From Roseimicrobium gellanilyticum (GTDB lineage Bacteria; Verrucomicrobiota; Verrucomicrobiia; Verrucomicrobiales; Verrucomicrobiaceae), in NCBI RefSeq assembly GCF_003315205.1, contig NZ_QNRR01000015.1, positions 62,001 to 126,000 on the forward strand: a stretch of 64,000 nucleotides of DNA, given 5' to 3'. A program made the translations under genes and the position numbers. Position 1 is the first letter of the stretch; each line of letters starts with the position of its first letter. This document shows, in pieces, positions 41,814-64,000 of the stretch. The notes under the pieces are model-generated. The model saw only the letters and a list, made by a program, of their open reading frames with translations, did no database searches and was not told the DNA's origin.

Positions 41814-41819
41814 GCGCAT

Positions 41820-46403: not shown

Positions 46404-46418
46404 AGAGATGCTCAATGC

Positions 46419-47594: not shown

Positions 47595-47609
47595 GGGGGG
47601 CGAAGATGG

Positions 47610-48149: not shown

Positions 48150-48200
48150 CACTATTGATGATTTTTTGATTTATAATTTTAGATTGGGAGTTGGGGCATT

Positions 48201-48782: not shown

Positions 48783-48887
48783 GAGGGGGCAAATTTGTTT
48801 TTGTAATCTACCCCGATGGAGATGTCGATTCTTGGGAAGAAACCAGGGACCAGGGAATTTCGGTGGGGGCGTGGAACGTTCCGCACC

Positions 48888-49045
48888 CCGCTTGCGACGG
48901 TGCTGGCATCGCCTTCGGGATGCGAGTGATAGCCTTTCTCTTTCTTTTCCGGTGGTATCGCTACGCTCAACCACCGGCTACAAGCTGCCATGCCTCCGAC
49001 ATGAAAGCCACCCGCTTTGTTCCAGGTCACGGCTGTCATTCAACT
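48888..49045. repeat. R3 palindromic element
   Basis: CTGGCATCGCCTTCGGGATG, then CCGGTGGTATCGCTACGCTC...ACCACCGG, then GCTACAAGCTGCCATGCC. The central CCGGTGGT/ACCACCGG arms form a hairpin. Other copies: 24590-24870 (pair), 53325-53466, 62658-62770. Confidence 0.85.
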
Positions 49046-49086
49046 TAACATGCGCAAAGATTCCAAATCTGCAGTGCGCAAGGGTG

Positions 49087-49150
49087 GAACGTCAGGGTGA
49101 GTGGGTGGCTACTCGGGCCACGAGTGGACGAGGGCCCTTGGGGCTATCCG
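49087..49150. repeat. R2 element, copy 8
   Basis: GAACGTCAGGGTGAGTGGG...GAGGGCCCTTGGGGC, 33 bp after the stop of member 50. Confidence 0.75.
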
Positions 49151-49183
49151 TGACCTGACGTGGGAGGACATGATGCGTGAAGG

Positions 49184-49777
49184 TCAAGGGCTGGCATGTG
49201 GAGTTGCAGAATCGGGAACGCTGGGCTCAAGTTCACTTTCCAACGGGGCCACGTCGGTAATGGGCCGTAGGGAGTTGATGGAGTTCTGAACCAGCGGTGG
49301 GCTGTGCTTGTGGAGCCACGTGAGGAATCCGCTCCATGTTCTCCTGGGTTGGGATTCCCAATAGTGATGACCAAGAAGGTCTCCGCGCTGTGCAGCGCGA
49401 ATGTGCTCCGGGAGAAGCTCTCCCTCGAGCTGAACCCTGCGATGGGGTCCGATGATCATGGCGCCTGGAACGGTCGGGACGGAACCTCCGCTCTGGTACT
49501 CTTCGATGACGATGCCGGTCGGATTGGCCCAACTCGGCTCCTTACCCGGCACTTCGATGAGGATGGCCACCAGATAGATCACCGCGGGGCTGGTATTTTC
49601 CACGCTGATGCGGATATCGCGATAGCCCAGAGGGTCGTGTTCGCTCATGGGCGCGATGTGCTCGAGACGGAGGATCAGAGGTTTGTACGGTTGCCAGGTG
49701 TACGTGAGATACACCGCTGGGACGGCGAGCAGCACGAGGAAGATCGCGGCGATGATGAACTTGGTGCGGCGGGACAT
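49184..49777 (-). CDS. Family A member 50
   Basis: 197 residues. TWQPYKPLILR (27-37); SVENTSPAVIYL (58-69). Long loop 75-115. IIGPHRRVQLEGELLPEHI replaces the PAHGT stretch and aligns with the same region of 42 and 45. Ends VAPLESELEPSVPDSATPHASP. Confidence 0.89.
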   Translation of the reverse strand: MSRRTKFIIAAIFLVLLAVPAVYLTYTWQPYKPLILRLEHIAPMSEHDPLGYRDIRISVENTSPAVIYLVAILIEVPGKEPSWANPTGIVIEEYQSGGSVPTVPGAMIIGPHRRVQLEGELLPEHIRAAQRGDLLGHHYWESQPRRTWSGFLTWLHKHSPPLVQNSINSLRPITDVAPLESELEPSVPDSATPHASP

Positions 49778-49891
49778 GGAGACTTGTGAGGTTAGACGGC
49801 CATCAAATGGGATGGAAGACTGGAGAGGCGAAGCTGCTGCGAAGGTCGGGGTGCGAGCTGCATGACGATAAGGATGCTTCGGGGCAATCAG

Positions 49892-50455
49892 TTACTTGAA
49901 TGCCGCATCCACCTCTACTGGAGCGGAGCCGGAGGGGAACTCAAACGTGGGAAACTTGCTCCACCAGGGCGCGGGACACAGATCATGCAGCCAGTTGAAT
50001 ACCGAGCTGACTTGCTTCTGCGTCTGCGACAGTGCGTAGTAATTGGCGCTCAACCTGCCCTGCTTCGCCTCTTTCACAAGGTTTGCCTGCAGAGAAGCAG
50101 TGGCAAGGATGGCACGCCCTGGTGGGAGAATGAACGCACCAGCTTCGGCATGAGTGCCGGCTTCCTTCTGATGCCGTGGGTCGATCGTTCCTGGCGGAAT
50201 CATGGTCAATTCAGGAGTGTCTCCAGTAAACTCCAAGCGGACAAAATACACATGAATGGGCATGGAGTTTGTATTCTCGACGCGCATCCGGACCATGCGG
50301 AAGCCGAACTCATCCTGATGCTCCTCGGGATAGAGATGCATCAACCGGAAGTGCACCGGTCGGGAGATGCGCCATGTAAGGGCGACATAGATCGCAGGAA
50401 TCGCCAGCAGCACGAGGAAGAGCCCGAGGATGATGAGCTTCGTGCGGCGGGACAT
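49892..50455 (-). CDS. Family A member 51 (promoter-proximal end of array)
   Basis: 187 residues. TWRISRPVHFR (27-37); RVENTNSMPIHV (58-69); LPPGRAILATASL; YYALSQTQKQ. Ends APVEVDAAFK. As the gene with the highest coordinates it begins the array in the direction of transcription. 250 bp separate it from the terminase stop. Confidence 0.9.
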   Translation of the reverse strand: MSRRTKLIILGLFLVLLAIPAIYVALTWRISRPVHFRLMHLYPEEHQDEFGFRMVRMRVENTNSMPIHVYFVRLEFTGDTPELTMIPPGTIDPRHQKEAGTHAEAGAFILPPGRAILATASLQANLVKEAKQGRLSANYYALSQTQKQVSSVFNWLHDLCPAPWWSKFPTFEFPSGSAPVEVDAAFK

Positions 50456-50705: not shown

Positions 50706-52286
50706 TCAAGTGCCGCGGACGCCCATGAGGACTTTGGGTTTGGGCTCGTGGCCGGTGTGGGTGGTGACGAGGCCGGCGGCATGGGCCTCGGCAAAGGTGC
50801 GGAACGCATCGGCGCTGTGCGAGCAGGCGTCGTGGAGGGGCATGGGACGCAGGGCTCCGCCGGGGGTGGGCGGCTGCTTGCGATAGGCTTCCAGGCACTG
50901 GAGGCCGGAGGGGAGGTCGCGGCCCTCGAGGCTCTTGCGCGGTCGGTCGGTGCGGGTGTGGAACCAACACTTGGGCAGGATATCCCGCACGTCATTGATG
51001 CCGGTCCAGATATCGGGCGTGCGCGGGACGATGCGAATGCTGTGGCGCGAGATACCGGCGGCTGAGAGTTGATCCACATAAGTGCGGCCGGAGCCTTTAT
51101 CCCGGATATTCGCATCATGCGGGAGGAAATGCATGGCGATGCGGCGGGCGAACATGGACTCCCAGGAGCGGATGACATCAGCGACATGGGCTGCGCCCTG
51201 GCCTTCGCCTTCGTGCCAGGCGAGGATGAGGAGGTCGCGACCGGAGGGCTGGATGAGCCAGCCGGAGGTGTAGTCACTGATGCCGAGGTCCCAGGCAGTG
51301 AACATGGGCATGCTGCGCTCGTGGCTGAAGTCCTTCACACGGCCCTGGGTGCGGAGGGTGGTGATCTCCGGATAGATGGGGTCGCGCGTGGTGGCCTTCA
51401 CGCACTCATCCGCGGTGGAGGGGAACTGGGTGTACATGCTCTCGCGCTGCTCGGCGGCCTTCCGCTCGTACCATGCCTGCCGTTCCAATTGGATGGTGAT
51501 GCCGTGCTTTGATTTCAGCTCGCGGAAGTAGCGCTCGGTCTCGGGCTTGCGCGGGGCGTGGTGTGGGAGGGTGTAGGAGGGATGGTGATACCAGGGGAAG
51601 AAGTGGAGCTTCCAATCGAGTGGCGAGAGCTGGCGGCCGGTGGCATCGCAGGCGAGGCGGAAGATTTCATAACATTCGCCCAGGGGTCCGCCTTCCATGG
51701 TGGTCTCGATGTCGATGATGCCGGTGGCAGGGACGGCATTGAAGGAACCCTGACGGACGCGGGCGGCGGCTTCGGGTCGCTGGGCGGCGAGGGGTCCGTA
51801 TTCAGATATGTGAAGGCGACGCGGGGTGCCACCCATGAAGGACATGTTTGCCTCTTGATGACTGCCGTTGCTCCAGGCGAGGCAGGAGTCGTTGGACTTT
51901 ACGAGTTTGAGTTTGGCGTGGAGGCCGCGCCAGATTTGGGCGATGGCGGGATTGGGATGCTCGGGACCACGCTCCCAGGCGAGGCGGGCGATGGCGAGTT
52001 TCTTGGTGGCATCATCCTTGCGGAAGTCGACGTGGGCGCAGTGGGTGTCCTTATTCCAGAGGCACTCGTCGAGGTAGTCGATGACGATGAAGGTGGACAT
52101 GCCGAGCTTGCGCGCCTTGGGCACGAAGTTTCGCGTGTGACGCGCCTGCATGAAGGTCTCCTGCTCAGCGCGGAGGACAAGGGGGATGAGGCCAGTGTCG
52201 TTACTATCCTCCGGGAGGATGAGGTAAAGGTGGCGGAGGCGCCAGGCCTTATCCGAGAGGACTGAGGTGAGTTTGTCGGCAAGCAT
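50706..52286 (-). CDS. terL: Phage terminase large subunit
   Basis: 526 residues. Packages DNA into the prohead: ATPase plus nuclease. ATPase domain: KARKLGMST (57-65) in the Walker A position and RLHISEYG (157-164) in the Walker B position. RNase H-like nuclease domain: TAWDLGISD (330-338, Asp333), LPHDA (388-392) and HDACSHSADAFR (485-496), the usual last catalytic Asp and AD-x-FR signature. Full length for the family. It lies on the minus strand with terS 246 bp upstream, facing away from the head genes. Confidence 0.92.
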   Translation of the reverse strand: MLADKLTSVLSDKAWRLRHLYLILPEDSNDTGLIPLVLRAEQETFMQARHTRNFVPKARKLGMSTFIVIDYLDECLWNKDTHCAHVDFRKDDATKKLAIARLAWERGPEHPNPAIAQIWRGLHAKLKLVKSNDSCLAWSNGSHQEANMSFMGGTPRRLHISEYGPLAAQRPEAAARVRQGSFNAVPATGIIDIETTMEGGPLGECYEIFRLACDATGRQLSPLDWKLHFFPWYHHPSYTLPHHAPRKPETERYFRELKSKHGITIQLERQAWYERKAAEQRESMYTQFPSTADECVKATTRDPIYPEITTLRTQGRVKDFSHERSMPMFTAWDLGISDYTSGWLIQPSGRDLLILAWHEGEGQGAAHVADVIRSWESMFARRIAMHFLPHDANIRDKGSGRTYVDQLSAAGISRHSIRIVPRTPDIWTGINDVRDILPKCWFHTRTDRPRKSLEGRDLPSGLQCLEAYRKQPPTPGGALRPMPLHDACSHSADAFRTFAEAHAAGLVTTHTGHEPKPKVLMGVRGT

Positions 52287-52430
52287 CGCTATTTATGATT
52301 TGTGATTGATGATTTTTGATTGGGGGCGTTGCCGGGTGTCTTTGGTGGATGGGAGTGGTGCGTCGGTTTATTTGGTCGCAAAGCAGCGGAGTCGCTAAGG
52401 GGGATTGGGGCGGGATTGGGCTGCGGGTGT

Positions 52431-52477
52431 TCAACGCAGAGACACAGAGACGCAGAGGAACTTCGGAGACTGAGAAG
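52431..52477. repeat. R11 element, copy 1
   Basis: TTCAACGCAGAGACACAGAG then ACGCAGAGGAACTTCGGAGA. Preceded by a G/T-rich stretch as in the other copies (56859, 59041, 60156). Lies in the terL-terS gap. Confidence 0.85.
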
Positions 52478-52497
52478 GGAGTGCGGGTTGCGGAGTG

Positions 52498-52529
52498 TGA
52501 CCGATGACCGATGACCGATGACCGATGAC
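52498..52529. repeat. Heptamer tandem repeat (TGACCGA), about 4.5 units
   Basis: Directly before the terS stop codon; same period as the array-associated heptamers. Confidence 0.9.
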
Positions 52530-52532
52530 TAC

Positions 52533-53234
52533 TCACTTCAGCAGTCGTGAGAGGGCTTCTTCGACGGCGGGTGAGGTGAGGCTTACGTTGCCTTCGACTT
52601 TGGAGGGGGCCTGCCAGCCGCAGAGGGTGGCGAGGAGTTTGGCGGCATCGAGCTTGCTGGGGAGTTTGGTTTTGCTACGGAGGAGGATGGGAGGTGGTGG
52701 TGTAGCATCGGACTGGGTGGACTCTGAGGGTGCGGCGAGTTTTGTGGAGGGTTTGGCTCGCGAGGAGGTGGTCCTCTTCCCAGCGCTGGAATAGTCCGAG
52801 GACGCCATCTGTGTTTTCTGCCCCTGGACGGCATTGGGGCGGCGTCCGCTGGTTGTGAGCTCGTCGCGGGTCCACTCCTGGCACTGGCGGTGATGCTGGT
52901 CTACGGTGCTGACGGGGGTCTGGATGGTCTCCACGAGGAAGGCGATGAGGTCGGCCTTGCTGAAATGCGCCTGATGCGTGGCGATGTGACTGGCCTCTCG
53001 GCGGAGGGTGGTGATGCGGGCGGTGATGGCCGGAGACCCCAGGAGCTGTGCAGCTTTCTTCTTCGCGGTGGCACCCGTTCTGCAACGGTAGAGGCGAAGG
53101 CAGGTTCCGACCGGATCTTCTCCAATGGAGACGGCCTGGGCGAAGGCTTCGAGTTTCTGATTGGCGAGTGGCGGGTCTACGTTCGAAAGCGTGTCCAAAA
53201 CCGGCTCAACGGTTGCGTTGTCATTGCAATGCAT
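52533..53234 (-). CDS. terS: Probable phage terminase small subunit
   Basis: 233 residues. Residues 26-80 (KLEAFAQAVSIG...CRTGATAKKKAAQLLGSPAI...RITTLRREA) follow the helix-turn-helix pattern of terminase small subunits: feature of a recurring A-A-x-x-L-L-x-x-P-x-V/I and R-I-x-x-L. It would recognise the pac or cos site and load terL. The C-terminal half (Ser/Thr/Pro/Lys-rich, about 130-200) is longer than in typical small subunits and looks unstructured. Start ATG at 53234. Confidence 0.78.
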   Translation of the reverse strand: MHCNDNATVEPVLDTLSNVDPPLANQKLEAFAQAVSIGEDPVGTCLRLYRCRTGATAKKKAAQLLGSPAITARITTLRREASHIATHQAHFSKADLIAFLVETIQTPVSTVDQHHRQCQEWTRDELTTSGRRPNAVQGQKTQMASSDYSSAGKRTTSSRAKPSTKLAAPSESTQSDATPPPPILLRSKTKLPSKLDAAKLLATLCGWQAPSKVEGNVSLTSPAVEEALSRLLK

Positions 53235-53324
53235 GGTACCAGAAAGTACATTCTGAGCATGTGAGTGTCAACGAGGGCAGTCGGCAGGGGTGGCAAGTGA
53301 GATCGTGTGACGCCACGCTCCCCG

Positions 53325-53466
53325 CTTGCCACGACGCTGGCATCGCCTTCGGGATGCGAATGATACTCTTTCTTTTCCGGTGGTATCGCTACGCTCAACC
53401 ACCGGCTACAAGCTGCCATGCCTCCGGCATGCAAGCTGAGGCCCCGGCTTGTTCCGGGCCACGGCA
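53325..53466. repeat. R3 element between terS and the next gene
   Basis: CTGGCATCGCCTTCGGGATG, CCGGTGGTATCGCTACGCTC and GCTACAAGCTGCCATGCC as in the other copies. A host-type repeat inside the phage block. Confidence 0.85.
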
Positions 53467-53518
53467 ATGGTTTGATTCGAAATGCTCTGGTCCCCTGCCC
53501 TACCGACTTACCCAAGCG

Positions 53519-54250
53519 CTATTGTCCAAGCCATTCGGTGGCGGCGATTTTCCAGGCTTCGTCGATGAGGTCTTCGTCTTCATCGATGCGGTCGATGACG
53601 CGCTCCAAATCCTTCTCGACGGCTTCGTAGAGGATTTCGTTCTCGTCTTCATCAACGATCTTGCCGTCGTGCCATTCACGGAGGCTGGCTTTGAGATCCT
53701 TGATGAGGACGGAGCTTAGTTCCATCTCGGTGAGCCACTCGGGGGTATGGAGCTTGTCCTTGTCGGTTGCACGGAAGGGTTCAACGAGTTTTCTGAAGTG
53801 AACTTCGATGGAAACCTTTTGGGGTTCGGTGGCCTTGAGGCTGGGGTTTTCGATATAGGGGCGCTCGAAGGGGACGCGGATGGACTGGGTGAGTCGCGCC
53901 TGAAACTCGGCTCCGAGGGTACGCTGGTAGATTTCCGTATTGGCGGCGCGTGGGGCGGCAGCATGCTCGGACTCGAGGCCGGCGACCTTGAGCTCGTGAT
54001 AGAGGTAAAGGGAGTAGACGGCTTTGCGATCTTTCTCGCTGAGCTTGGCGTCGTGGAGGAAATCGACGAGGGCGAGGATCCAGACGCGACCCTGAAGGGC
54101 GGCGAAGGTGATCTCTTCTGATGTTTTTGGCCGGGCGATGGCGCTGGTGGGGGCGCTGAGGATGAGGCCGGTGATGAGCAGGAGGCCGAGAAGTGAGAGT
54201 CGGGAGCTGGGGCTGGATCTGGATTGGCGGAAGGGAGCTGAGGTGTTCAT
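53519..54250 (-). CDS. Exported protein of unknown function
   Basis: 243 residues from MNTSAPF; a Met 7 residues upstream is possible. A hydrophobic segment (SLLGLLLITGLILSAP, about 19-34) ending in an AIA-R site looks like a signal peptide. The mature part is charged and mainly helical; the C-terminal 60 residues are very acidic (DEDENEIL, IDEDEDLIDEAW). No phage homology seen. It separates terS from family B member 5. Confidence 0.72.
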   Translation of the reverse strand: MNTSAPFRQSRSSPSSRLSLLGLLLITGLILSAPTSAIARPKTSEEITFAALQGRVWILALVDFLHDAKLSEKDRKAVYSLYLYHELKVAGLESEHAAAPRAANTEIYQRTLGAEFQARLTQSIRVPFERPYIENPSLKATEPQKVSIEVHFRKLVEPFRATDKDKLHTPEWLTEMELSSVLIKDLKASLREWHDGKIVDEDENEILYEAVEKDLERVIDRIDEDEDLIDEAWKIAATEWLGQ

Positions 54251-54418
54251 GCGGTGGAGGGAGGAATGCAAAGTGGTGGGGGAGATGGCGTGCGGAGAGG
54301 AGGGAATGGAGTACGAGAAGGACTTTTGAGGTAGATGAGGGAGGCGCGACTCTGTAGGGTGGGTGCGTGGGGCTGTCTCGCTTGGACGGGGGCAGTGGGA
54401 GGTTCGTTCACGTCACTT

Positions 54419-54733
54419 ATGAGAAATACCCCGGAAGAAGATGCAGACTCGCGGGCGGAGCGTGGCCGGGTGGGCAAAGCGATGGTGTGGATGCTTGCGA
54501 CGGGGGTGATGCTGGTGGTGCTGTATGTGCTGAGCGCTCCGATGGTAGAGCATCGAGCGATGAGTGCTGCACCTGGAGGCACGTTCTTCAGCAAGAGGCC
54601 GGAATGGCTGCACCGCTATCTGCAGCTTTGGGATTGGCTGGTGCGCATCCGGGTGCTGGAGGGGCCGATGACGCAGTACCAGATATGGTACTATGAGCGG
54701 GTGTATGACGTGCAGGTGGAAGAGGTGCGATGA
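54419..54733 (+). CDS. Family B member 5
   Basis: 104 residues. Anchor with LVVLYVLSAPMV (about 36-47), then KRPEWLHRYLQLWDWL and YQIWYYERVY. Same plan as members 1-4 but on the plus strand and outside the array, beside the phage genes. Start taken at MRNTPEE because the 28 upstream codons have no matching sequence in other members. Confidence 0.75.
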   Translation: MRNTPEEDADSRAERGRVGKAMVWMLATGVMLVVLYVLSAPMVEHRAMSAAPGGTFFSKRPEWLHRYLQLWDWLVRIRVLEGPMTQYQIWYYERVYDVQVEEVR

Positions 54734-55305
54734 GCGGGCGAGTCCGGCACTCTCCTCGCTGTGGCGAACGGGACATGCTGCCACTCCACGGGCTATCACT
54801 TTCTCCTGGACCCCTTCAGGGTCCGAGCTTTTTTCTACGTTTACCCAGGGTGTCGGTCGCCAAGGCTCCCTAACCCTGGGCTGGGCTCCTGTGCCCCTTC
54901 AGGGCACGAATGCGGCAGTCGTTTCAAAGGAGTTGATGCGGCAGTCGTTTCAAAGGAGTTGTGGAGTTCGATTGTGGATATGTGAAGGAGTGAGCATGCA
55001 ATGGTGCGGTGCGAACTCTGTGGGAGGATGCCGGGTGCGAGACTTGAAGCCGCATGCCCCGGGTCCGGAGTTCCCCAGCCAAAGCGGTGCTTCGCACGCG
55101 CACTCCAAAGCGCTCCGCGCAACGTGGTGCTGTTTGGCGAATGATGGGGCCAATCGGGTCGGTCATCTCACGGGACTTGCCAGTTCGGGCTTAGCCTGAC
55201 CTGTGACTCCGCATTTTTTCAACACTTCACGGCATTGGATAAACAAGGATGCAGATAGATGGGGAGGGAGTTTGCTCTTTGGTGATTCTGGACTGTCGCA
55301 GCTGC
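54734..55305. repeat. Gap with R8 element and a 27-bp direct duplication
   Basis: R8 at about 54805-54910 (CCCTTCAGGGTCCGAG, GGTCGCCAAGGCTCCCTAAC), inverted relative to the 34.8-kb copy. 54909-54960 repeats ATGCGGCAGTCGTTTCAAAG twice in tandem. No gene. Confidence 0.75.
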
Positions 55306-55647
55306 ATGAAGACGAAACCGGAAGCGTGGATGAGGGACCCGTATGCGCCATCGCGCTTCAAGAGGTGGGTATGGCTGGGTGTGGTGGTGGTGATGGTGTA
55401 TCTCCTGAGTGTGCCGCCGATATCCATCTGTGTGACGACGGGATGGCCTCTCTCGATCGCGTACGCGAAGCGTGGGGCGAAGCCGGAGGGCTGGGTGAAG
55501 ACCTATCGGGTGCCGTATGAGTGGCTGGCGGGGAAGGCTTTTGCGAAGGGGGTGCTAAGAGGATATGAACGCTGGTGGCTGGATGTGATGATTCCGGTGA
55601 GGGAGGGAGGAAGGCGGCTGGGCGACGGAGGGTGGAATGCAAAATGA
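55306..55647 (+). CDS. Family B member 6
   Basis: 113 residues from MKTKPEAW; an ATG at 55249 would add 19 residues. Anchor VWLGVVVVMVYLLSVPPI; then KPEGWVKTYRVPYEWLAGKAF and YERWWLDV. The W-V-K-x-Y-R-V-P-x-x-W segment lines up with WLVVYVAPAEW of member 4. Next to member 5 on the same strand. Confidence 0.75.
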   Translation: MKTKPEAWMRDPYAPSRFKRWVWLGVVVVMVYLLSVPPISICVTTGWPLSIAYAKRGAKPEGWVKTYRVPYEWLAGKAFAKGVLRGYERWWLDVMIPVREGGRRLGDGGWNAK

Positions 55648-55848
55648 AAAGTGAACAATGAGAGACCGACCTGATTTCACTCTGTCATCTGCCTAACCCA
55701 GCCAGAATTCGATACTTCAAGAACGTTGAAGGTGTCCAGACCTCTGTACTGCAAGGGATGGCCTGGATGCGGCGGGATGAGGGCATGATGGTGGGGGGGG
55801 GAGAGAAGATTTTGTTGGACAGGGGAATTGGGGAGCTTAGAATGGGCA

Positions 55849-55861
55849 GGTACCAGAAAAC
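55849..55861 (+). promoter_or_regulatory. Conserved 13-mer GGTACCAGAAAAC (copy 1)
   Basis: GG-N-ACCAGAAAAC recurs at 62960-62972 and 63198-63210. Here it lies 18 bp before the ATG of the next gene. It is a candidate phage promoter or translation element. Confidence 0.45.
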
Positions 55862-55879
55862 ATGTTTTGACGTGTGACT

Positions 55880-56317
55880 ATGAGTGTTGATGGGTTTATC
55901 ACGATGCCTTCTTTCAGGCCGGATGGGAGCCTGGACAGGCTGAACCACGGTGGCGGGTCGAAGCTGCCGAAGACGATCCCGGGAGAGCCAACGAAGGTGC
56001 AGAAGTATCCGGACTTCTTCCGTGCGGTGCTCTTGATGGCGCACCAGAAGGCTGCGGGGGTGAAGAAGGTGGACCCGGAGTTGGGATATACCATTCCGTA
56101 TGGCCAGGGGAACTTGCAGGGCTCGAAGGGTGCAGGGCAGTCACCTGCGCAGCAGGCAGGCACCACGGCGGGAACAGGGATGTCCGGGCAGCGGACTGCG
56201 CCTGCGGCCACCTCTGCGGAAGGAGGTGCGATGGCGCCCAGGAAGAAGAGAACCCTGCTCTCGGGTGGTGGGGCTCTTTCGCAGCCGTACGGGTCCGATA
56301 CGATTCTGGGTGGATGA
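55880..56317 (+). CDS. Small phage structural-type protein (Gly/Ala-rich)
   Basis: 145 residues from ATG 55880; GTG 55874 is an alternative. N-terminal half mixed. The C-terminal part is low complexity (QSPAQQAGTTAGTG...APAATSAEGG) and ends KKRTLLSGGGALSQPYGSDTILGG-like: a basic patch, then T-L-L-x-G-G and a final L-G-G. Short proteins with this tail are often found near the portal gene of podoviruses. Role unknown. Confidence 0.65.
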   Translation: MSVDGFITMPSFRPDGSLDRLNHGGGSKLPKTIPGEPTKVQKYPDFFRAVLLMAHQKAAGVKKVDPELGYTIPYGQGNLQGSKGAGQSPAQQAGTTAGTGMSGQRTAPAATSAEGGAMAPRKKRTLLSGGGALSQPYGSDTILGG

Positions 56318-56365
56318 CCAAGGGTGATGGACAGGTATCGAAAAGAAAGGTGAGGCAGCAGGCTT

Positions 56366-56770
56366 ATGAGAATGATCGATGGATATGATTATACAAACTA
56401 TGCGAAGACGCAGCCGAATGGGAAGCTGACGCGGTATCACTTTGGCGGGGGCAGGAGCCAGGCACCGCCCCCACCGAAGCAGGAGCCAATCAAGATTCCG
56501 CCGATGCCGAAGATTCATCTTCCGCCTCCTCCGGCCCCGGCACCGTCTCCTCCCCCACCCCCGACGGCGACGAGTGCGGAGGTGGCGCAGGCGGATGAGC
56601 AGGCGCGCAAGGATATGAACCGGCGCAAGGGTCTGCGCAAGACGGTGCTGGCGGGTGAGACGGGTGGGTATGGATATGGGTCAGGATATGGATATGGCGG
56701 CAGTGCGTCCGGAAGTGTGCTGGGTGGTGGGACGCTGCTGGGTGGAAATCAAGGGGGTGGCGTCGTTTAG
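56366..56770 (+). CDS. Small phage structural-type protein (Pro-rich)
   Basis: 134 residues. A Pro-rich centre (PPPPAPAPSPPPPP) is followed by DEQARKDMNRRKGLRKTVLAG and a Gly/Tyr-rich end (GYGYGSGYGYGG...GGTLLGG). The basic RRKG-L-R-x-T-x-L-x-G then TLLGG pattern matches the previous gene, so the two may be related. Similar small proteins accompany podovirus head genes. Start MRMIDG. Confidence 0.68.
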   Translation: MRMIDGYDYTNYAKTQPNGKLTRYHFGGGRSQAPPPPKQEPIKIPPMPKIHLPPPPAPAPSPPPPPTATSAEVAQADEQARKDMNRRKGLRKTVLAGETGGYGYGSGYGYGGSASGSVLGGGTLLGGNQGGGVV

Positions 56771-57256
56771 GGAACCACTCATGGACACTAACGGGACGCT
56801 TATATGAGTGGTGGTGGGGTTGGCTCTGGAGTGGATGGGTGTGGTGGGGTGCAGTGAGTTCAACACAGAGACACGGAGACGCAGAGGAACTTCGGAGACT
56901 GAGGACTCGTGGGCGTTTCTTGGTGAGTGGGGTGTGGCAGCGTTGGGAACCGTCGATGTGAGGGTGGGTGAATCGAGAGGGCGTATGAGAGATTTTTCCG
57001 AGGGTATCAGGACAGAAGCGCTCCGTTCAAAGCGGTGTCGCGGCCTCAAGGGAGGCCTGTGCCACCGCACTCCAAGACGCATAGCGACCTGGTTCCTTGA
57101 GTGGCTGTGTTTCATGTCAGCCCCCTGCTTAAGCTCTTCCCTACTTTATGTTAGAATCAGAGGTGCAACGAGGGCTCGGGAGGATGTTCAGCGATGGGTG
57201 CTGAAGGGAGGCTGTTGGTGGACGGTGATGATTGAAACTTTTATCTGTTTTATCTG
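56771..57256. repeat. Gap with R11 copy 2 and R4 arm
   Basis: R11 at 56859-56904 and an R4 arm at 57019-57092 (CGGTGTCGCGGCCTCAAGGG, CACCGCACTCCAAGACGCAT). 486 bp lie between two phage genes and no gene is evident. Confidence 0.75.
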
Positions 57257-58948
57257 ATGAGAAGCGAGAAGGAGATTGTGGAAGAGTGTGTGGCGACGTA
57301 TGAGGCGCGGAAGAGTGCCCGGGCGCCATGGGATGCACAGTGGCAGGTCATTGCGGACTATTTCTGTCCGAGGAAGGCGAGCATCACGAACAGCAGTCAC
57401 CTGCCGGATGGGCAGAAGGAGGCGCAGATCTATGATGGGAGCGGGTACTATGCGCTGGATGTGGCGGTGAGGGGTCAGACGTCCGACATCATCCCGCATG
57501 ACCAGGTGTGGTTCTCCTTTGACCCGCCGCCGGGGATGGCGGGTGAGTTCCGGGTGCAGCAGTGGTGTCAGCAGGCAACGAGGCTGGTGAGACTCTACCT
57601 GAGCGCCTCGAAATTTTATCCACAGTCCTATGAGTTTGTGAGTGACCGGACGTGCTTTGGCACGGCGTGCCTGTACTCTGAGGAGAGTGATCTGGATCCG
57701 AATGTGCCGGTGGTGTTCCGGCATCATCGCATCGGCTCATACACGATGGCGGAGAATGCGGATGGGGTGGTGGATTCGCTGGATTTTGAGAGGCGCTTCA
57801 CGGCGCGGCAGCTGGTGGAGAAGTTTGGCCGGGAGGTGGCGAGTGCGAAGGTGCGGGAGTGCTTTGATGCGGGGCGCGGGAAGCAGGATACGCAATTCAC
57901 GGTGCTGCACTGTGTGTATCCACGCGCGGAGGCGGAGCGCATCCTGGGCAAGATGGATGGTCGGAACAAGCCGTATGCCTCGGTGTGGCTGGAACGGGAT
58001 GCGAAGCAACCCTTGCGTGTCTCTGGCTATGATGAGATGCCTTTCAGTGTGTCGCGATGGAGCACGTGGGAGGGGAATGAGGAGACGGCGCCGTATGGAT
58101 ATTCGCCGGCCTTTATGGCGCTGCCGGATATGCGTCAGCTGAATCTGCTGCAGAAGTGCCTGGATGTGCTGGCGGAGAAGAAGGCTAATCCCCCCTTGCT
58201 GATTCCGACGGGGTTCAAGGGAGATATTGACTATCGCGCGGGTGGGATCACGTGGTTCGACCCGGCGACGGGGGATGCGGCGAGGCCGCAGGCGTGGGGG
58301 ATGGAGGGTGACTATGGCCTGGGGGTGCAGCGCGCGGACCAGAAGCGGAGCCAGATTGAGGCCTTCTTCCAAGTGAACATGTGGCTGGCGATCTCGCGCA
58401 TGGAGAGGGCGAACATCACGGCGGAGGAGGTGCGGGCGCGTGTGGGTGAGCAGGCGAGGCAGTTCTCCGCGACGTATACGCTGCTGGTGACGGAGTGGCT
58501 GACGGCGCAGTTGATGCGCTTCTTCCGCATTCTGCTGCGGCGCGGGATTCTGCCGCCGCCGCCGCAGGAGATGGTGAGTGATGATGGGCGGGGGAATCTT
58601 TTCATCCCGGAGCCGCAGGTGCTCTTCTCTTCAAGAATCGCGCTGGCGCTGAAGGAGGCGGATAATACGGCGGTGGGGAGTGTGCTGAATCTGGCGGGGG
58701 CGATTGCGCAGATGGCGCCGGATGTGATGGATAACTTCAACCTGGATGAGATGATTCGCGGGAGTGCGCGGAATCGTGGATTGCCGCCGGAGTATCATCG
58801 GGACCCGGATGAGGTGGCGGCGATGCGTGCGGCGCGGGCGCAGGCGCAACAGCAGATGCAGCAGGCGGAGATGATGGAGCAGATGAGCCGGGCGGCGGCG
58901 AATGCGGGGAAGATTCCGAAGGATTCGCCGATGATGGGGCTGATGTGA
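57257..58948 (+). CDS. Phage head-tail connector (portal) protein, T7 gp8 type
   Basis: 563 residues. The N-terminus (W-D-x-x-W-x-x-I-A-D-Y-F-x-P-R) and the segment SDIIPHDQVWFSF follow the podovirus head-to-tail connector family. It forms the dodecameric portal at the capsid vertex. The C-terminal 45 residues are Ala/Gln/Met-rich (RAAR-AQAQQQMQQAEMMEQM), typical for the channel/barrel end. Length is within the family range. ATG preceded by TTTTATCTG, no Shine-Dalgarno motif. The next genes follow at unusually large distances. Confidence 0.93.
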   Translation: MRSEKEIVEECVATYEARKSARAPWDAQWQVIADYFCPRKASITNSSHLPDGQKEAQIYDGSGYYALDVAVRGQTSDIIPHDQVWFSFDPPPGMAGEFRVQQWCQQATRLVRLYLSASKFYPQSYEFVSDRTCFGTACLYSEESDLDPNVPVVFRHHRIGSYTMAENADGVVDSLDFERRFTARQLVEKFGREVASAKVRECFDAGRGKQDTQFTVLHCVYPRAEAERILGKMDGRNKPYASVWLERDAKQPLRVSGYDEMPFSVSRWSTWEGNEETAPYGYSPAFMALPDMRQLNLLQKCLDVLAEKKANPPLLIPTGFKGDIDYRAGGITWFDPATGDAARPQAWGMEGDYGLGVQRADQKRSQIEAFFQVNMWLAISRMERANITAEEVRARVGEQARQFSATYTLLVTEWLTAQLMRFFRILLRRGILPPPPQEMVSDDGRGNLFIPEPQVLFSSRIALALKEADNTAVGSVLNLAGAIAQMAPDVMDNFNLDEMIRGSARNRGLPPEYHRDPDEVAAMRAARAQAQQQMQQAEMMEQMSRAAANAGKIPKDSPMMGLM

Positions 58949-58949
58949 A

Positions 58950-58977
58950 TTTGAGATTTGAGATTTGAGATTTGAGA
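58950..58977. repeat. Heptamer tandem repeat (TTTGAGA), 4 units
   Basis: Right after the portal stop codon. Same AT-rich heptamer type that precedes family A starts. Confidence 0.85.
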
Positions 58978-59040
58978 TCTCAGATTTCGGAGGGCGGTGG
59001 GGTTGGTTCTGGAGTGGGTGGGTGTGGTTGGGTGCAGTGG

Positions 59041-59086
59041 GTTCAACGCGGAGACACAGAGACGCAGAGGAACTTCGGAGACTGAA
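59041..59086. repeat. R11 element, copy 3
   Basis: Same core as copy 1, and the same G/T-rich lead (GGGTGGGTGTGGTTGGGTGC). Between portal and the next gene. Confidence 0.85.
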
Positions 59087-59156
59087 CCGGAGGCTGAGGT
59101 TGATAGTTGATAGCCTGAGAGGGCTTGATGAGGGAGACTCTATCTTTTGATGTTTT

Positions 59157-59486
59157 ATGATGGATAATGGTATACCGGTTTTGGGGCAGGCGGAGTTGGC
59201 GGCAGAGGGGTTGAGAAGGAGGCAGGAGGAGGAAAGGGAGTTGGGGAAGATGTATGCGAGGGTGTTTGGGACGAAGGAGGGGCAGGCGGTGCTGAGGGAC
59301 CTTTGTGAACATTTTCCTCATACCCGGCCGAGGTTTGATGCGGTGGCGACGAAGGGGAATGCGGTGGCGGCGCTGATTGGGGGGATTCACTTCGATGGGT
59401 CGGCAGCGGTGGTGAGGTATGTGATGGAGAGGATGGAGTCGGCGAAGGGGAAGATGGAGGAGGCGCCGGTGGTGGTGGGGGCATAA
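59157..59486 (+). CDS. Bbp19-like phage protein
   Basis: 109 residues. MYARVFGTKEGQAVLRDLCEHF (about 31-52) matches the V-F-x-T-x-x-G-x-x-V-L-x-D-L signature of small phage proteins encoded beside the portal (Bbp19 type); exact role unknown. The start is MMDNGIP; either Met is possible. Confidence 0.7.
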   Translation: MMDNGIPVLGQAELAAEGLRRRQEEERELGKMYARVFGTKEGQAVLRDLCEHFPHTRPRFDAVATKGNAVAALIGGIHFDGSAAVVRYVMERMESAKGKMEEAPVVVGA

Positions 59487-59624
59487 GCGGTGCGGCGGTG
59501 ATCGAAGGGGAATGCAAAATGAGAAGTGAAAAATGAAAAACGCAAAGTGGGCCGGGGTTGATGCGGTGAGCGGTGAGACGGTGGTAGAGGCGACGACTAG
59601 CGGAGAGGATGTAATTTTTTTGAT

Positions 59625-59984
59625 ATGACGAAGGCTAAGATAATCACCAAGGGGAAGAAGAGGAAGGGTGTGGGCGGCGTGGCGAAGAGACCGGTAGATG
59701 GGCGTGCGGTGCAGGTGAGTCCAGAAGCTGTGGATGAGGTGGGTGTACTCCCCTGCCCTGTGCCGACGGACCCGGCGATGGGGGACAAGACGCCGGAGGT
59801 GATGGCATGGTATCGAGAGCATCGGCCGGAGGAGTTTAGGAGGAGATATGGGAATCGGGTTTGTCCGGAGGTGGATGATGTGGTGCGGTGTGGTGTGATG
59901 GGTGATGATGATGCGATGGGGCCGGTGTCGGATTTTGAGGATGATGAGGTGGTGGTGGTGAAGCCGAGGGTGATTATGGGGTGA
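59625..59984 (+). CDS. Hypothetical phage-region protein
   Basis: 119 residues. Basic N-terminus (TKAKIITKGKKRKGVGG), centre with AWYREHRPEEFRRRYG, acidic C-terminus (DDDAMGPVSDFEDDEVVVV). No family recognised. The centre resembles a short helical motif seen in capsid-assembly or virion proteins, but this is a guess. Confidence 0.6.
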   Translation: MTKAKIITKGKKRKGVGGVAKRPVDGRAVQVSPEAVDEVGVLPCPVPTDPAMGDKTPEVMAWYREHRPEEFRRRYGNRVCPEVDDVVRCGVMGDDDAMGPVSDFEDDEVVVVKPRVIMG

Positions 59985-60010
59985 AGGAGGGAGGGATAGA
60001 GGGGCAGCGG

Positions 60011-60106
60011 GTGCTGAGGTGCTGAGGTGCTGAGGTGCTGAGGTGCTGAGGTGCTGAGGTGCTGAGGTGCTGAGGTGCTGAGGTGCTGAGGTGCTGAGGT
60101 GCTGAG
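60011..60106. repeat. Octamer tandem repeat (GTGCTGAG), 12 units
   Basis: 96 bp, exact 8-bp period, between phage genes. Different period from the heptamers elsewhere. Confidence 0.96.
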
Positions 60107-60155
60107 GGGTTGTGGGGTTGTGGGCGGAGAGGATGGGTGTGGTTGTGTGCATTGG

Positions 60156-60202
60156 ATTCAACGCAGAGACACAGAGACGCAGAGGAACTTCGGAGACTGA
60201 GG
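60156..60202. repeat. R11 element, copy 4
   Basis: Identical core to copy 1. Preceded by GGATGGGTGTGGTTGTGTGC. Confidence 0.85.
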
Positions 60203-60716
60203 ATGAGGCGTTGGGAAGGTAGAGAGTATTGGGGTGCTTGGCGCTTTCCGCATGCCGGTTCCACGCCGCCTCCGCCCATCTGATTTGGAAGCCGGCGCAG
60301 CGGCTCCCCACCGGTTCATTGGTGTGCCGAGCGGTAGACCAGAGGGACGCCAGGCTGCCGCCGTATTGCGCGAGTTGATTCGCCAGGTCCATGGCTCCCT
60401 CCGCGCGTTCATCCATGAGCGGCAGGTGCTCGTCCTCCCAGGGGGTGCGAGCCTGATTTGCAGGATGTGACATGGTGTGAACAGCTCTCGGGGTGAGTGG
60501 TGAGAGGGTTTCAGAGGAGTGGGGTGATGGTGCGCGGTGGGGAACGGGGCGTCCCCCGTCCTTTGGCCTGTGGCGGTGCCTTGGGATGGGGATGTGTGGT
60601 GGGAGATGGTGAGTCTTGAGGCTGGCGGGAGGAATTCAGTTCAAGGTGGGCTTTGCGAATGCGAGGGACATTCTATTTTTTGATCACAAACCAAATAACC
60701 AACGAGTGATATTGAT

Positions 60717-61598
60717 ATGAGTGAAGATGCGACTGGCAGTGGGCAACAACAGCAGGATGGTTCGTTTGTGAACCATGGAAGTGGTGCGGGATGGAATGGT
60801 GGTGGTGGTGGCACTGCTGGAGTTTCGGGAGAGTGGGTGGTGGATGGGAAGTTTGCGCAGGGGCTTTCTGCCAAGTTGTCTGATGATTTGAAGCCTTATG
60901 CGGGATCCATCCGGAAGTTTGAGGGGACGCCGATTCAGGATGTGCTGCGATCGTATGGTGAGCTGGAGAAGAAGCTGGGGCAGCGGATGCAACCGCCGGG
61001 GCCGGAGGCGAGGCCGGAGGAGGTGGCGGCGTGGAGGAAGAATCTTGGGGTGCCGGAGAAGCCGGATGGCTATGGGATTGCGAGGCCGGAGGATGTGCCG
61101 GTGGAGCTCTGGAATGAGGAGATGGTGCGGGGCTTTACGGCGGTGGCGCACAAACATCACATCCCGGCAGCGGCGGCGCAGGAGCTGGTGCAGTGGTGGA
61201 ACGGGCAGCAGATGTCAGCGGTGTCGCGCTATCACACCGAGGCTGTGAATCATCGTGAGGCGCTGGTGCAGGGGCTGCAGAGTGAGTGGGGAGAACGGTA
61301 TGAGACGAATCTGCAGGGAGCGCAGCGGGTGGCGGCGATGGCGAGACTGGATGTGAATGACCCGGCGATTGGCGATAATCCGACGGTGATCCGTGCGCTG
61401 CATGCGATGGCGTCGCTGGTAAGCGAGGATCGCCAGGAGACGGGCGGGAGTGGTGCGCTGAGGCTCACGCGGCAGCAGCAGGCGGATGATATCCAGACGA
61501 ACAAGTCCAATCCGCTGTATGGGGACTATCACGGGGCGAATGGATCGGAGAGGCAGGCGATGGTGGCGGAGCAGATAAGGAGGCTGCGGATGGGGTAG
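60717..61598 (+). CDS. Probable phage capsid scaffolding protein
   Basis: 293 residues. The Gln/Gly/Ser-rich N-terminus leads to a helical middle (about 45-250) with W-R-K-N-L-G-V-P-x-K-P-D-G-Y, seen in podovirus assembly/scaffold proteins. LQSEWGERYETNLQGAQRVA follows, and the last 50 residues are polar with a basic end (IRRLRMG). It precedes the major capsid gene, as in T7-like gene order. Its role is to shape the prohead, by context and composition. ATG at 60717; no Shine-Dalgarno motif. Confidence 0.75.
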   Translation: MSEDATGSGQQQQDGSFVNHGSGAGWNGGGGGTAGVSGEWVVDGKFAQGLSAKLSDDLKPYAGSIRKFEGTPIQDVLRSYGELEKKLGQRMQPPGPEARPEEVAAWRKNLGVPEKPDGYGIARPEDVPVELWNEEMVRGFTAVAHKHHIPAAAAQELVQWWNGQQMSAVSRYHTEAVNHREALVQGLQSEWGERYETNLQGAQRVAAMARLDVNDPAIGDNPTVIRALHAMASLVSEDRQETGGSGALRLTRQQQADDIQTNKSNPLYGDYHGANGSERQAMVAEQIRRLRMG

Positions 61599-62014
61599 TT
61601 TCGGTGCGACGGTGCGACGGTGCGACGGTGAGCGTTGAGCGGCTTATGAAAGGGGACCGCTAATGGACGCCAACGGGCGCTGGGGGGAAGGGTCAGGGGT
61701 GGTTTGAGATGTTGGGAGGTGGCTTGAGGTCAACCACTCATGGAAGCTGATGGATATCCATGCCGTGAGTGCCGGATGTGGCGCAGGAAACCGTTGGAAG
61801 AGGTTGCTCCCCGGGGATGGGGGAACGGCTTGCCGTGCATCAGTTTCACACCACCTTCGCCTGCCTGCTCAGGAAACCGGCGCAGCGGTTCTCCACCGGT
61901 TCATTGGTGAGCGACATGATAGACTGTTGGAAGGCGACGAGGAACGGCAGAGGGCCAAGATCATCGGATGCACCAGTCTGAGGCCGGGATGTTGCCAGGG
62001 GATTGGTGTTGCCA
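61599..62014. other. Gap with a second copy of the TNEPV-CAGF coding block
   Basis: On the minus strand 61846-61918 encodes MSLTNEPVENRCAGFLSRQAK, similar to TNEPVGSRCAGFQIRWAE at about 60275-60330. The shared DNA core is GGCGCAGCGG, then CCACCGGTTCATTGGTG. It may be the end of a small gene or a repeat; no full gene is certain here. Confidence 0.5.
61603..61629. repeat. Octamer repeat (GGTGCGAC), about 3.4 units
   Basis: Just after the scaffold stop codon. Confidence 0.85.
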
Positions 62015-62488
62015 CTACCTGACAGGCAGGACGTGAATGGCGTGGGCGGCGCGGAAGAGAGCTGGTCTGTTGAAGTCGAAGATACCGGGGCTGACTTCGT
62101 CAAGGTAGTCCGTGGCGGCGGCGAAGATGAGGCGGAAAGAGACCTGGGGGAAGGTGGTATCCGGAAGCTCTGCGAGCGCGAGGTCCTCGGGGACGCCCTC
62201 AAGTACGATGGTCAAGAGAGCGACGGCGCGACGCATGAAGCTGATGAACACGTGCGGTCTTCCTGCATAGAGGCGCTCAGCGGCCTCGCCAAAGAGGGCG
62301 AGCTCTGTATCCGGCAGGGTGAAGGTCTCTCCTTCGAAGGTGTAGGTGTTGTCATACAGTCTGCCGAATCTAAGGACACGCGACCTCACGGCCTCGGGGT
62401 CGGGATGATCTGCGGCATAGCTGGCGTGCCGAAAGGTCTCCAGGAATTCCTTGGGGTTGAGAGGTAGGGTGACGCGGGTGGGCGACAT
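62015..62488 (-). CDS. Hypothetical 157-residue protein inside the phage block
   Basis: Runs against the head genes. MSPTRVTLPLNPKEFLETF start; VLRFGRLYDNTYTFEGETFTL, then a more hydrophobic helical part (FISFMRRAVALLTIVLEGV). I recognise no family. The position between scaffold and major capsid genes is unusual and suggests a moron or insertion. Confidence 0.68.
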   Translation of the reverse strand: MSPTRVTLPLNPKEFLETFRHASYAADHPDPEAVRSRVLRFGRLYDNTYTFEGETFTLPDTELALFGEAAERLYAGRPHVFISFMRRAVALLTIVLEGVPEDLALAELPDTTFPQVSFRLIFAAATDYLDEVSPGIFDFNRPALFRAAHAIHVLPVR

Positions 62489-63225
62489 GGGTGGCGCTGC
62501 AGGGGATGTGGCCTCGGCTGTGAAAGGGTATGCCGGGGGCGCTGGGATGGCAAGGTGGGTGTGAGTGAGGAATCAACCACTTCATCTGTGGCACGCATTT
62601 TGTGGAACACATACCTTCGGAAACGAGGGAGGGCGTGGACGCCCTGTACCACTTGGCTCGACGCTGGCATCGCCGTCGGGATGCGATGACTGTTCTCCCT
62701 TATCCGGTGGTATCAGTACGCTCAACCACCGGCTACAGGCTGTCATACCTCCGGCATGTGAGCTGCCCTGTCTGCGACAGGCGGCGGGCAGGATTTGAGT
62801 TCGGATGCTTGAAGGCGAGTGTGGTGTCACGCACGTTTCTTCAAGGCTCCGCACCCAGCATGCTGACTGCCGGCACTAAGGCTAGTGCCGTTCCCCGCGG
62901 GGGCATCTTTGTGGTGGAGCGACAGCGATGGGTATGTTTTCATGATTTTTGAGTTGCACGGGACCAGAAAACACGTTATGAGTGTGGGGTGCTGCTATTG
63001 AGCCGGGGCCATGAAGCTCTGACAACTTGGTGGCGGTGACTTTTTCTGCCTCATCCAGCAGCCAGCGGGTGCTGACAACTGCGAGTGACGGCTCCCTGAA
63101 TCTATACAGGAACTGGAATGTCTGTGTCCCCTTCCCTCCCCTGCCCCAGTGTGGCCGATGTGATGGCCTGATTGACGGTGGCGGGTGCGTGAGCAGCGGA
63201 ACCAGAAAACTCGCAAGATAACGAT
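62489..63225. repeat. Gap with R3 element and two regulatory-like 13-mers
   Basis: R3 at 62658-62770 (CCGGTGGTATCAGTACGCTC). Two copies of GG-N-ACCAGAAAAC (62960-62972 and 63198-63210). After the first comes a 7-codon frame beginning ATGAGTGTG, like the start of the gene at 55880. No credible gene otherwise. Confidence 0.65.
63198..63210 (+). promoter_or_regulatory. Conserved 13-mer GGAACCAGAAAAC before the capsid gene
   Basis: 15 bp before the capsid ATG; matches 55849-55861 and 62960-62972 with one variable base. Confidence 0.45.
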
Positions 63226-64000
63226 ATGTCATTGGATATTACGCAATTTTACCCGACGGAGTTCGAAAGGAACTGGACTCATGTGGCTCAACAGATGGAC
63301 TGCCGGCTGCGCCAGGCGGTGATGCCGGGTGGGAATCTGACGGGCAAGAGGAAGTCATTCAATCTGCTGAATGACTATGAGATGGACGAGGTGACGACCC
63401 GCAAGGGTGACACGCCGGATGGCGATACCTCGGGTGAGAAGTACTGGCTGTATGCGCGGAAGTTTGAGAAGGTGATCACGTTCGATGAGGATGATGAGCG
63501 CCAGCTGGGGCAGATTGTGCTGCCAGACTCGGACGAGGTGCGCAATATGGCGATGGCGTACAATCGCAAGGTGGATGATATGATCATCGCGGCCTTCGAT
63601 GCGACGCGGTACATTGGTGAGGATGGGACGACGACGGACCCCTTCCCTGCTGGTCAATCCATCGCGGTGGACTATGTGCCGAGCGGTGCGCCGGCGAACA
63701 GCGGGCTGACGTTTGCGAAGATTCGCGAGGCGGCGCGCATCCTGAATGTGAATGAGGTGCCGGAGAGTGAGCGCTTCTTTGCGTACGGGGCGAAGCAACT
63801 GGATGACCTGCTGGCCATCACGGAGGCGACGAGCCGGGACTTCAGTGACCTGATGGCGCTGAAGGACGGGAAGATCAGCTACTGGATGGGCTTTACGTGG
63901 ATTCCGACGCAGCGCCTGAGCCGCAATGTGAGCACGGATGTGCGTTCCTGCTTTGCGTGGCACAAGTCGGCGGTGAAGCTGGGTGAGGGTTCACGCAACA
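63226..64000 (+). CDS. Phage major capsid protein, partial (runs off the right edge)
   Basis: 258 residues visible. MSLDITQFYPTEFERNWTH opens it. The ARKFEKVITFDEDDERQLG and NRKVDDMIIAAFDATRY stretches, plus SYWMGFTWIPTQRL later, fit podovirus capsid proteins of the portal-scaffold-capsid cluster. Builds the icosahedral shell. Preceded by AAGATAACGAT rather than a Shine-Dalgarno motif. The stop is outside the window. Confidence 0.85.
   Translation, partial: MSLDITQFYPTEFERNWTHVAQQMDCRLRQAVMPGGNLTGKRKSFNLLNDYEMDEVTTRKGDTPDGDTSGEKYWLYARKFEKVITFDEDDERQLGQIVLPDSDEVRNMAMAYNRKVDDMIIAAFDATRYIGEDGTTTDPFPAGQSIAVDYVPSGAPANSGLTFAKIREAARILNVNEVPESERFFAYGAKQLDDLLAITEATSRDFSDLMALKDGKISYWMGFTWIPTQRLSRNVSTDVRSCFAWHKSAVKLGEGSRN

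Follow-up and report, generated by a model that had tools for sequence, protein, structure and literature searches.

A podovirus-type particle locus at the same chromosomal place in two Roseimicrobium species, and its probable domestication

Genes of the late module and of the element around it

The window analyzed here is a 64,000-nucleotide stretch of Roseimicrobium gellanilyticum DNA (C15:62001-126000, where C15 is contig NZ_QNRR01000015.1 of a 7.93-Mb genome in 32 contigs), and its positions 50706 to 64000 cover the left-hand portion of a late module of podovirus type. The module reaches 24 kb beyond the window, ends near C15:149753 (window position 87753), and totals ~37 kb. We compared it with the DNA of a sister species of the same genus, Roseimicrobium sp. 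ORNL1 (G061 in the coordinates below; chromosome of 7,957,748 bases), which has an average nucleotide identity of 84% with R. gellanilyticum and was cultured in R2A medium by its authors (PMC7330248); no further species of the genus was available for the comparison. On balance, we read the element as an immobile, mostly vertically inherited particle locus resembling a gene transfer agent (GTA).

A first-pass annotation of the sequence had placed podovirus-like head and packaging genes at these positions, and matches to PF12236, PF19821, and PHROG families identified them there (Table 1; the start of each gene was taken as the first ATG, GTG, or TTG of its open reading frame [ORF]). The whole capsid protein matched PF19821 (E = 4e-71), and its predicted model (predicted local distance difference test [pLDDT] score of 75) had phage capsids as structural matches, at a template modeling score (TM) of about 0.6. 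Past the window, the capsid gene is followed by genes for a 151-aa protein, a gp11-like protein (PHROG 394, E = 5e-54), and a gp12-like protein (PHROG 376, E = 1e-194), and further on by ejection-protein-like and toxin-like ORFs. The module further carries two ORFs named by eye, one of them lipoprotein-like and the other for a small membrane protein, as well as genes for a DUF1353 protein (PF07087, E = 9e-19) and for a small product matching a tail-lysozyme PHROG (E = 4e-19). The packaging, head, and tail-nozzle set is complete in both species, with open frames for terS, terL, portal, scaffold, capsid, gp11-like, and gp12-like genes, and the matches to PF12236, PF19821, and PHROGs 2, 394, and 376 support a tailed-phage ancestry of the proteins. 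With the terminase, portal, and capsid genes all open, we set aside the possibility of a tailocin. The plus strand of window positions 50001 to 64000 also has a strong G-over-C skew (maximum, 0.415 at 58001-60000), which across the late module is similar in coding (0.22) and noncoding (0.26) parts.

The late module is part of a larger element that occupies ~C15:52000-149753 and, in G061, ~2549440-2653600, a length of about 98 to 104 kb. The range 50706-64000 named in the first-pass annotation does hold the genes listed for it but is only part of this element, which also includes early genes, a paralog array, and the 24 kb beyond the window. A DnaC-like loader (C15:59135-59857) is matched by viral early proteins (PHROG 50, E = 1.5e-23) and adjoins a DUF1376 protein (C15:58192-59148; PF07120, E = 3.8e-9). 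Both genes are kept in G061, with ratios of nonsynonymous to synonymous divergence (dN/dS, calculated here and below, like dS, by the Nei-Gojobori method) of 0.20 and 0.32, respectively. The idea that these early genes are a separate prophage was set aside because a free viral relative, IMG/VR record G072, has the order DnaC-like gene, terL, p133, portal.

Between the DnaC-like gene and terL stands an array of 52 minus-strand paralogs (C15:59913-112455), of which the one outside the window lies at C15:59913-60491; G061 has 42 members between the same two genes. This protein family was found in 2 of 68 genomes of the bacterial family, both from this genus, and nearly all scored members lie inside the element (up to 49 candidates were scored per genome, which caps the member counts of this search and makes the absence from other genomes less than certain). 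The members are very diverse, being about 16 to 31% identical to the first of 20 aligned, and a model of an array protein (pLDDT 89) gave only generic Ig-like matches in Foldseek (TM of about 0.3). A secretin gene (window positions 969 to 3830, minus strand; PF00263, E = 4e-24) lies near the start of the array, and a second ORF with a secretin-like C terminus, recognized by eye, lies at C15:61048-61950 (minus strand); both are between the array and the DnaC-like gene. IMG/VR lists a virus record of 102,245 bases that by its coordinates covers ~G061:2551192-2653436, and a 21.7-kb stretch of it that we fetched was identical to G061.

Terminase inversion, gaps, and repeats

As the first-pass annotation had noted, terL and terS are inverted relative to the head genes, lying on the minus strand while the head genes are on the plus strand. 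By contrast, terL is codirectional with portal in all 19 free-relative loci in which terL was seen (20 loci were examined from the best 80 kept of at least 511 confirmed IMG/VR relatives) and in all five chromosomal relatives outside the genus that had a terL match (10 loci were searched). The inversion is thus common to both Roseimicrobium species and present in no relative with terL seen. A homolog of p133, a small gene located after terL in relatives, is now found on the minus strand within the array, so that terS, terL, and p133 look like one inverted block; it is kept in G061 (dN/dS, 0.20).

The wide gaps that had been pointed out between the head genes are real. They measure 208 bp (portal-Bbp19-like), 138 bp (Bbp19-like-p119), 732 bp (p119-scaffold), and 1,627 bp (scaffold-capsid), followed past the window by 438 bp (151-aa gene-gp11-like) and 102 bp (gp11-like-gp12-like), whereas most of the corresponding gaps in two free relatives measure −44 to 223 bp, the scaffold-capsid gap being 851 bp in one of them. 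A crude measure of ORF coverage gave 0.91 to 0.93 for the modules of both species, 0.86 to 0.94 for nine free relatives, and 0.69 for a shuffled control. Because the ranges of the modules and the free relatives overlap, we rejected coverage as evidence on compactness, and the loose packing claimed for the module holds by gap length but not by ORF coverage. The minus-strand gene described between scaffold and capsid was recovered as a 157-aa ORF, which tblastn did not find in the 240 kb of G061 examined. In G061, the scaffold-capsid gap measures 6.7 kb and holds a 1,182-aa minus-strand ORF (G061:C1:2588502-2592050) with no Pfam match, so that this gap has different inserts in the two species.

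A 26-mer repeat (three mismatches allowed) has 67 copies in the R. gellanilyticum genome, and 8 of these are in the 37-kb late module, where 0.31 would be expected (Poisson P = 2e-9, on an even-spread expectation that is not corrected for the larger noncoding share of the module). The coding fraction of the module was calculated without the 151-aa ORF at window positions 68898 to 69353. G061 has 60 copies, 4 of them in its late module versus 0.44 expected, and 3 of these 4 sit in gaps that also hold a copy here: portal-Bbp19-like, p119-scaffold, and 151-aa gene-gp11-like (where the R. gellanilyticum copy, longer by one base, is not among the 8 counted). These three common gaps took up the 26-mer before the species split or were hit twice. 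The invasion by host repeats that had been proposed is therefore borne out, with at least three invaded gaps carrying the 26-mer in both species, and at least these three gaps are probably old. A 31-mer repeat has six genome copies, five on C15 and two in the module, and none in the G061 module, so that some repeats arrived later. The first-pass annotation also held that the repeats occur outside the module. This was so for the 26-mer, the 31-mer, and the heptamers, whose arrays are found elsewhere in the window, but both octamer arrays seen lie within the module. The repeat labels used in that annotation (R3, R4, and R11) could not be matched one to one with the repeats found here.

Table 1. 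Features of the window, with positions numbered from its first letter
Feature	Position	Strand	Evidence or remark
51 of the 52 array members	5257..50455	-	N-terminal helix and Ig-like domain predicted
p133 homolog, now inside array	45273..45635	-	tblastn E 2.5e-8
terL, terminase large subunit, 526 aa	50706..52286	-	PHROG 2 E 7.8e-11; PF17289 below cut-off
26-mer copy, terL-terS gap	52448..52473	+	
Heptamer tandem array	52498-52529		
terS, terminase small subunit, 233 aa	52533..53234	-	PHROG 51 E 4e-7
31-mer copy, upstream of terS	53377..53407	+	
250-aa ORF, function not assigned	53519..54271	-	no Pfam match; G061 homolog 77% identical over aligned part
147-aa ORF preceding portal	55874..56317	+	no Pfam or PHROG match; G061 homolog 51% identical
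134-aa ORF	56366..56770	+	counterparts precede portal in several relatives; PHROG 831 E 0.0013; dN/dS 0.24
26-mer copy, before portal	56877..56902	+	
Portal/head-tail connector, 563 aa	57257..58948	+	PF12236 E 2e-101
Heptamer tandem array	58949-58987		
26-mer copy, portal-Bbp19-like gap	59060..59085	+	G061 copy in same gap
Bbp19-like protein, 109 aa	59157..59486	+	PF25181 E 3e-7; same position in relatives
p119, 119-aa protein	59625..59984	+	same position in many relatives; dN/dS 0.55
Octamer tandem array, 12 copies	60010..60107	+	
26-mer copy, p119-scaffold gap	60175..60200	+	G061 copy in same gap
Scaffold-position protein, 293 aa	60717..61598	+	PHROG 3742 E 7e-36; PHROG 458 'protease' E 3e-7
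Octamer tandem array	61602-61630		
157-aa ORF between scaffold and capsid	62015..62488	-	no Pfam or PHROG match
31-mer copy, scaffold-capsid gap	62704..62734	+	
Major head protein, 298 aa	63226..64000	+	gene cut by window end, continues to 64122; PHROG 3437 E 1e-53

Chromosomal place and constraint in the sister species

To the right of the module, both species have a sigma-factor-like ORF (84% identical) followed by a copper-ATPase-like ORF (83% identical), both named by eye. For the left side, a comparison with 240 kb of G061 revealed no host DNA collinear with that upstream of the early genes. A whole-genome search then located two anchors in the same order and direction: C15:42891-43970, corresponding to G061:2754861-2753791, and C15:45312-45827, corresponding to G061:2742537-2742022. 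G061 has ~88 kb of extra DNA on this side, part of which matches other contigs of the R. gellanilyticum genome.

The first-pass annotation had pointed beyond position 64000 for tail, lysis, and integrase genes and attachment sites, and that DNA supplied the tail-nozzle and lysozyme-like genes described above. No match to the PF00589 integrase family was found on C15 (scanned from position 2001) or in the G061 stretch, none to the PF00239 resolvase family was found in either genome (other recombinase types were not searched for), and no tRNA gene was found in the stretches scanned. Nor did a search for attachment-site repeats yield a convincing one; 22-bp and 15-bp stretches are shared near the G061 borders, and we did not take them as attachment sites because by eye they resemble the dispersed repeat. 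Without an integrase, resolvase, tRNA, or attachment-site repeat where these were searched for, a complete inducible phage is not favored. With the same place in both genomes of the genus and no integrase or resolvase nearby, the locus appears to be fully endogenized.

Between the species, the DNA of late-module genes is about 70 to 91% identical, and the majority of gaps cannot be aligned. Low dN/dS ratios are seen for terL (94% identical; dN/dS, 0.082), portal (95%; 0.093), capsid (94%; 0.098), and the 151-aa (0.105) and gp11-like (0.097) genes, whose proteins are both 94 to 95% identical. Most other genes lie between 0.09 and 0.22, among them the DUF1353 (0.10), lysozyme-like (0.13), gp12-like (0.22), and scaffold-position (0.22) genes; the Bbp19-like gene is at 0.29, and terS is 61% identical, with a dN/dS of 0.41. 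As a host control, we took 71 gene pairs (at least 100 aa, 80% coverage) from two distant stretches, and their medians were 0.90 for identity, 0.80 for dS, and 0.078 for dN/dS. These comparisons support purifying selection on the packaging, head, nozzle, and lysis genes at about the level of host genes. Low dN/dS in the core, taken together with the shared old gaps, fits domestication better than plain decay. The first-pass annotation had left open a decaying or a domesticated prophage; domestication is favored for the core, and in R. gellanilyticum the signs of decay are confined to the distal end.

At that end, G061 has two fiber genes; the fiber stretch here instead carries an insertion sequence (IS) transposase fragment, a TylF-like methyltransferase, and a membrane-protein-like ORF. 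Behind the ejection proteins, tandem ORFs at window positions 73975 to 80528 share an N-terminal stretch (70 to 86% identical) and differ in their C termini, several of which match toxin domains (Zeta_toxin, E = 2e-8; Tox-MPTase4, E = 3e-15; MuF_C, E = 4.5e-5, below the cut-off). The ejection end of G061 has MuF_C, LPD3, Kinase-PolyVal, Tox-MPTase4, and LPD37 domains, and a single 1,920-aa ejection ORF there carries LPD3 (E = 1e-20), Kinase-PolyVal (E = 2e-11), and, below the cut-off, MuF_C. Multidomain proteins encoded among virion genes and bearing effector-type domains are what the available text of PMC5512222 describes as polyvalent proteins, and the G061 ORF fits that description, whose domains are spread over several ORFs in R. 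gellanilyticum.

Relatives, alternatives, and meaning

A portal match was found in 9 of the 68 family genomes, this one included, but only that of G061 is close (95%), the other seven, among them Verrucomicrobium sp. strains BvORR034 and BvORR106, being 29 to 38% identical. One family genome (G014) has three portal loci, on contigs C6, C4, and C29, and the order of the C4 locus is permuted, with gp12-like and ejection genes upstream of portal and scaffold. Among the best 80 IMG/VR relatives, the G061 copy aside, portals are 37 to 42% identical, and the capsids of free relatives are 34 to 45% identical. Scans with portal or terL alone found no close free virus, the only such record being that of G061. 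Three whole free records (36.7, 37.1, and 39.5 kb) each carry one integrase-family gene (PF00589; one above the curated cut-off and two below), record G068 has a DnaB-type helicase, and none of eight free records has a DNA polymerase A gene. The temperate podovirus-type records G068, G072, and G073 have the same late-gene order from portal to the ejection proteins, and G072 shares the DnaC-like gene, terL, and p133 as well. They differ in that terL is codirectional with portal, the gaps are shorter, an integrase-family gene is present, the length is 35 to 40 kb, and the array is absent.

The locus resembles GTAs, as described in the available text of PMC9662315, in having tailed-phage head, packaging, and tail genes that are fixed in the genome and constrained, with no integrase found; it may also be too long for one particle. 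Of the six GTA features given there (proteins of tailed-phage origin, mostly random host DNA as cargo, full endogenization, a locus too long for one particle, mostly vertical inheritance alongside host diversification, and DNA delivery to other cells), the first and, apparently, the third are found here. The locus differs in its podovirus-type genes, its host phylum (Verrucomicrobiota), the early-type genes and the array of 42 to 52 genes inside it, and its exchanged ejection block. As far as its anatomy tells, the locus would work like a GTA; we do not file it as one. Its likeness to the polyvalent proteins of PMC5512222 (in the text available) and to MuF-type polymorphic toxins lies in a large virion-gene protein with LPD3, Kinase-PolyVal, and MuF_C (in G061) and in variable toxin-like ends, while the several stand-alone ORFs that repeat an N-terminal stretch, and the seeming immobility of the locus, set it apart.

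Several observations weigh against an immobile, mostly vertically inherited, GTA-like locus. The ejection protein, one ORF in G061, is split here into two overlapping frames, and no fiber match was found in the R. gellanilyticum genome (an unrelated fiber would be missed). Although ivpB is 72% identical between the species, ivpC is alike over its first 212 residues only (33%), and the start of ivpD matches Verrucomicrobium sp. BvORR106 (31%) and not G061. The BvORR106 match and the dissimilarity from ivpC on imply that parts were swapped with other phages, either by the locus itself or by its ancestor; the distal end has undergone exchange or fast change, which leaves room for exchange in the head genes as well. 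Weak constraint on terS and p119 belongs here too, as does the fact that dS for terL, portal, Bbp19-like, capsid, 151-aa, and gp11-like genes falls in the lowest 4% of 68 host genes (3 of the 71 were dropped, with dS undefined or not above dN). Among host genes, low dS accompanies high GC content at third codon positions (GC3) (rho = −0.49); GC3 explains part of the low head-gene dS, and later exchange between the species is possible. The length argument, in which the ~98- to 104-kb locus is set against free records of 35 to 40 kb with a related capsid, is weakened in that these records come without a completeness estimate and may be incomplete. Evidence on inheritance thus runs both ways, with the same place, the common gaps, and the array in two species on one side and the low head-gene dS and the exchanged ejection block on the other.

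The split ejection frame, the missing fiber match, the IS transposase fragment and host-like genes at the site of the G061 fibers, the enlarged repeat-bearing gaps, and the loss of an integrase would also be expected of an ancient prophage that is decaying slowly without present use, its low dN/dS left over from past selection and its genes not yet removed. We consider this unlikely, because unused genes should drift towards a dN/dS of 1, whereas at a synonymous divergence of 0.3 to 0.5 terL, portal, capsid, 151-aa, and gp11-like genes are without a stop codon and have a dN/dS near 0.1, and because the shared repeat-bearing gaps mean that the locus had loosened before the split. More improbable still is an active temperate phage, or the independent entry of two related phages at the same site in two species. 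Late and some early genes are present, head-gene dS is below that of most host genes, the ejection block has been exchanged with other phages, G061 retains its fibers and the 1,920-aa ejection ORF, and the G061 stretch has its own virus record in IMG/VR. Such a phage is nevertheless hard to reconcile with the lack of an integrase or resolvase nearby, with the terL inversion, array, and repeats common to both species, or with the host-like dS of the terS, DUF1353, lipoprotein, and early genes, and the locus is far longer than its free relatives, none of them close by the portal or terL scans.

We give an equally small chance to particles that chiefly deliver toxins, and not DNA, to rival cells, the distal ORFs forming a polymorphic-toxin cassette and the array or neighboring ORFs protecting the producer. 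The shared N-terminal stretch with differing toxin-like C termini, the corresponding domains at the ejection end of G061, and the fact that this end changes fastest would fit such a role. Against it, ordinary phages commonly have polyvalent ejected proteins according to the available text of PMC5512222, no immunity gene has been shown, and R. gellanilyticum has no fiber match to aim the particle.

For the GTA-like locus that we prefer, the ancestor would have been a temperate podovirus with free relatives known from records of about 35 to 40 kb, and the provirus most likely occupied this chromosomal place already before the two known species of the genus diverged. No integrase is detectable in it, its terminase block would have been inverted, a genus-specific family of 42 to 52 putatively membrane-anchored proteins would have expanded between early and late genes, and host repeats would have settled between the late genes, while purifying selection kept the packaging, portal, capsid, tail-nozzle, and lysis genes. 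The cell most likely gains from the particles built. What the sequences show is the gene content, the common place, the constraint, the repeat-bearing gaps of both species, the lack of an integration gene where searched, and the length, whereas particle making, contents, and benefit are all inferred. Since the locus is ~2.5 times the length of the free records, a particle would be expected to contain either a portion of it or different DNA. Ejected proteins whose ends resemble toxins may be aboard as well, so that the particles would perhaps deliver effectors in addition to transferring genes. A more specific and decidedly tentative version is an immobile podovirus-derived viriform of this length, with a conserved head and packaging core, an exchangeable toxin-tailed ejected block, and a large exported family, specific to the genus, that expanded inside it; together these would pass both effectors and DNA from cell to related cell.

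Should particles indeed be produced, the locus would represent a GTA-like system of podovirus type in Verrucomicrobiota, for which we found no report in the open-access literature searched, as far as its text was available. A domesticated particle locus is not easily distinguished from a dying prophage. Its presence at one chromosomal place in two species offers a direct test: here the spacers turned over and gained host repeats, whereas constraint on the particle genes persisted. The locus also poses a new question, namely, what made an apparently exported family of 42 to 52 members expand at precisely the junction of early and late genes in a resident virus.

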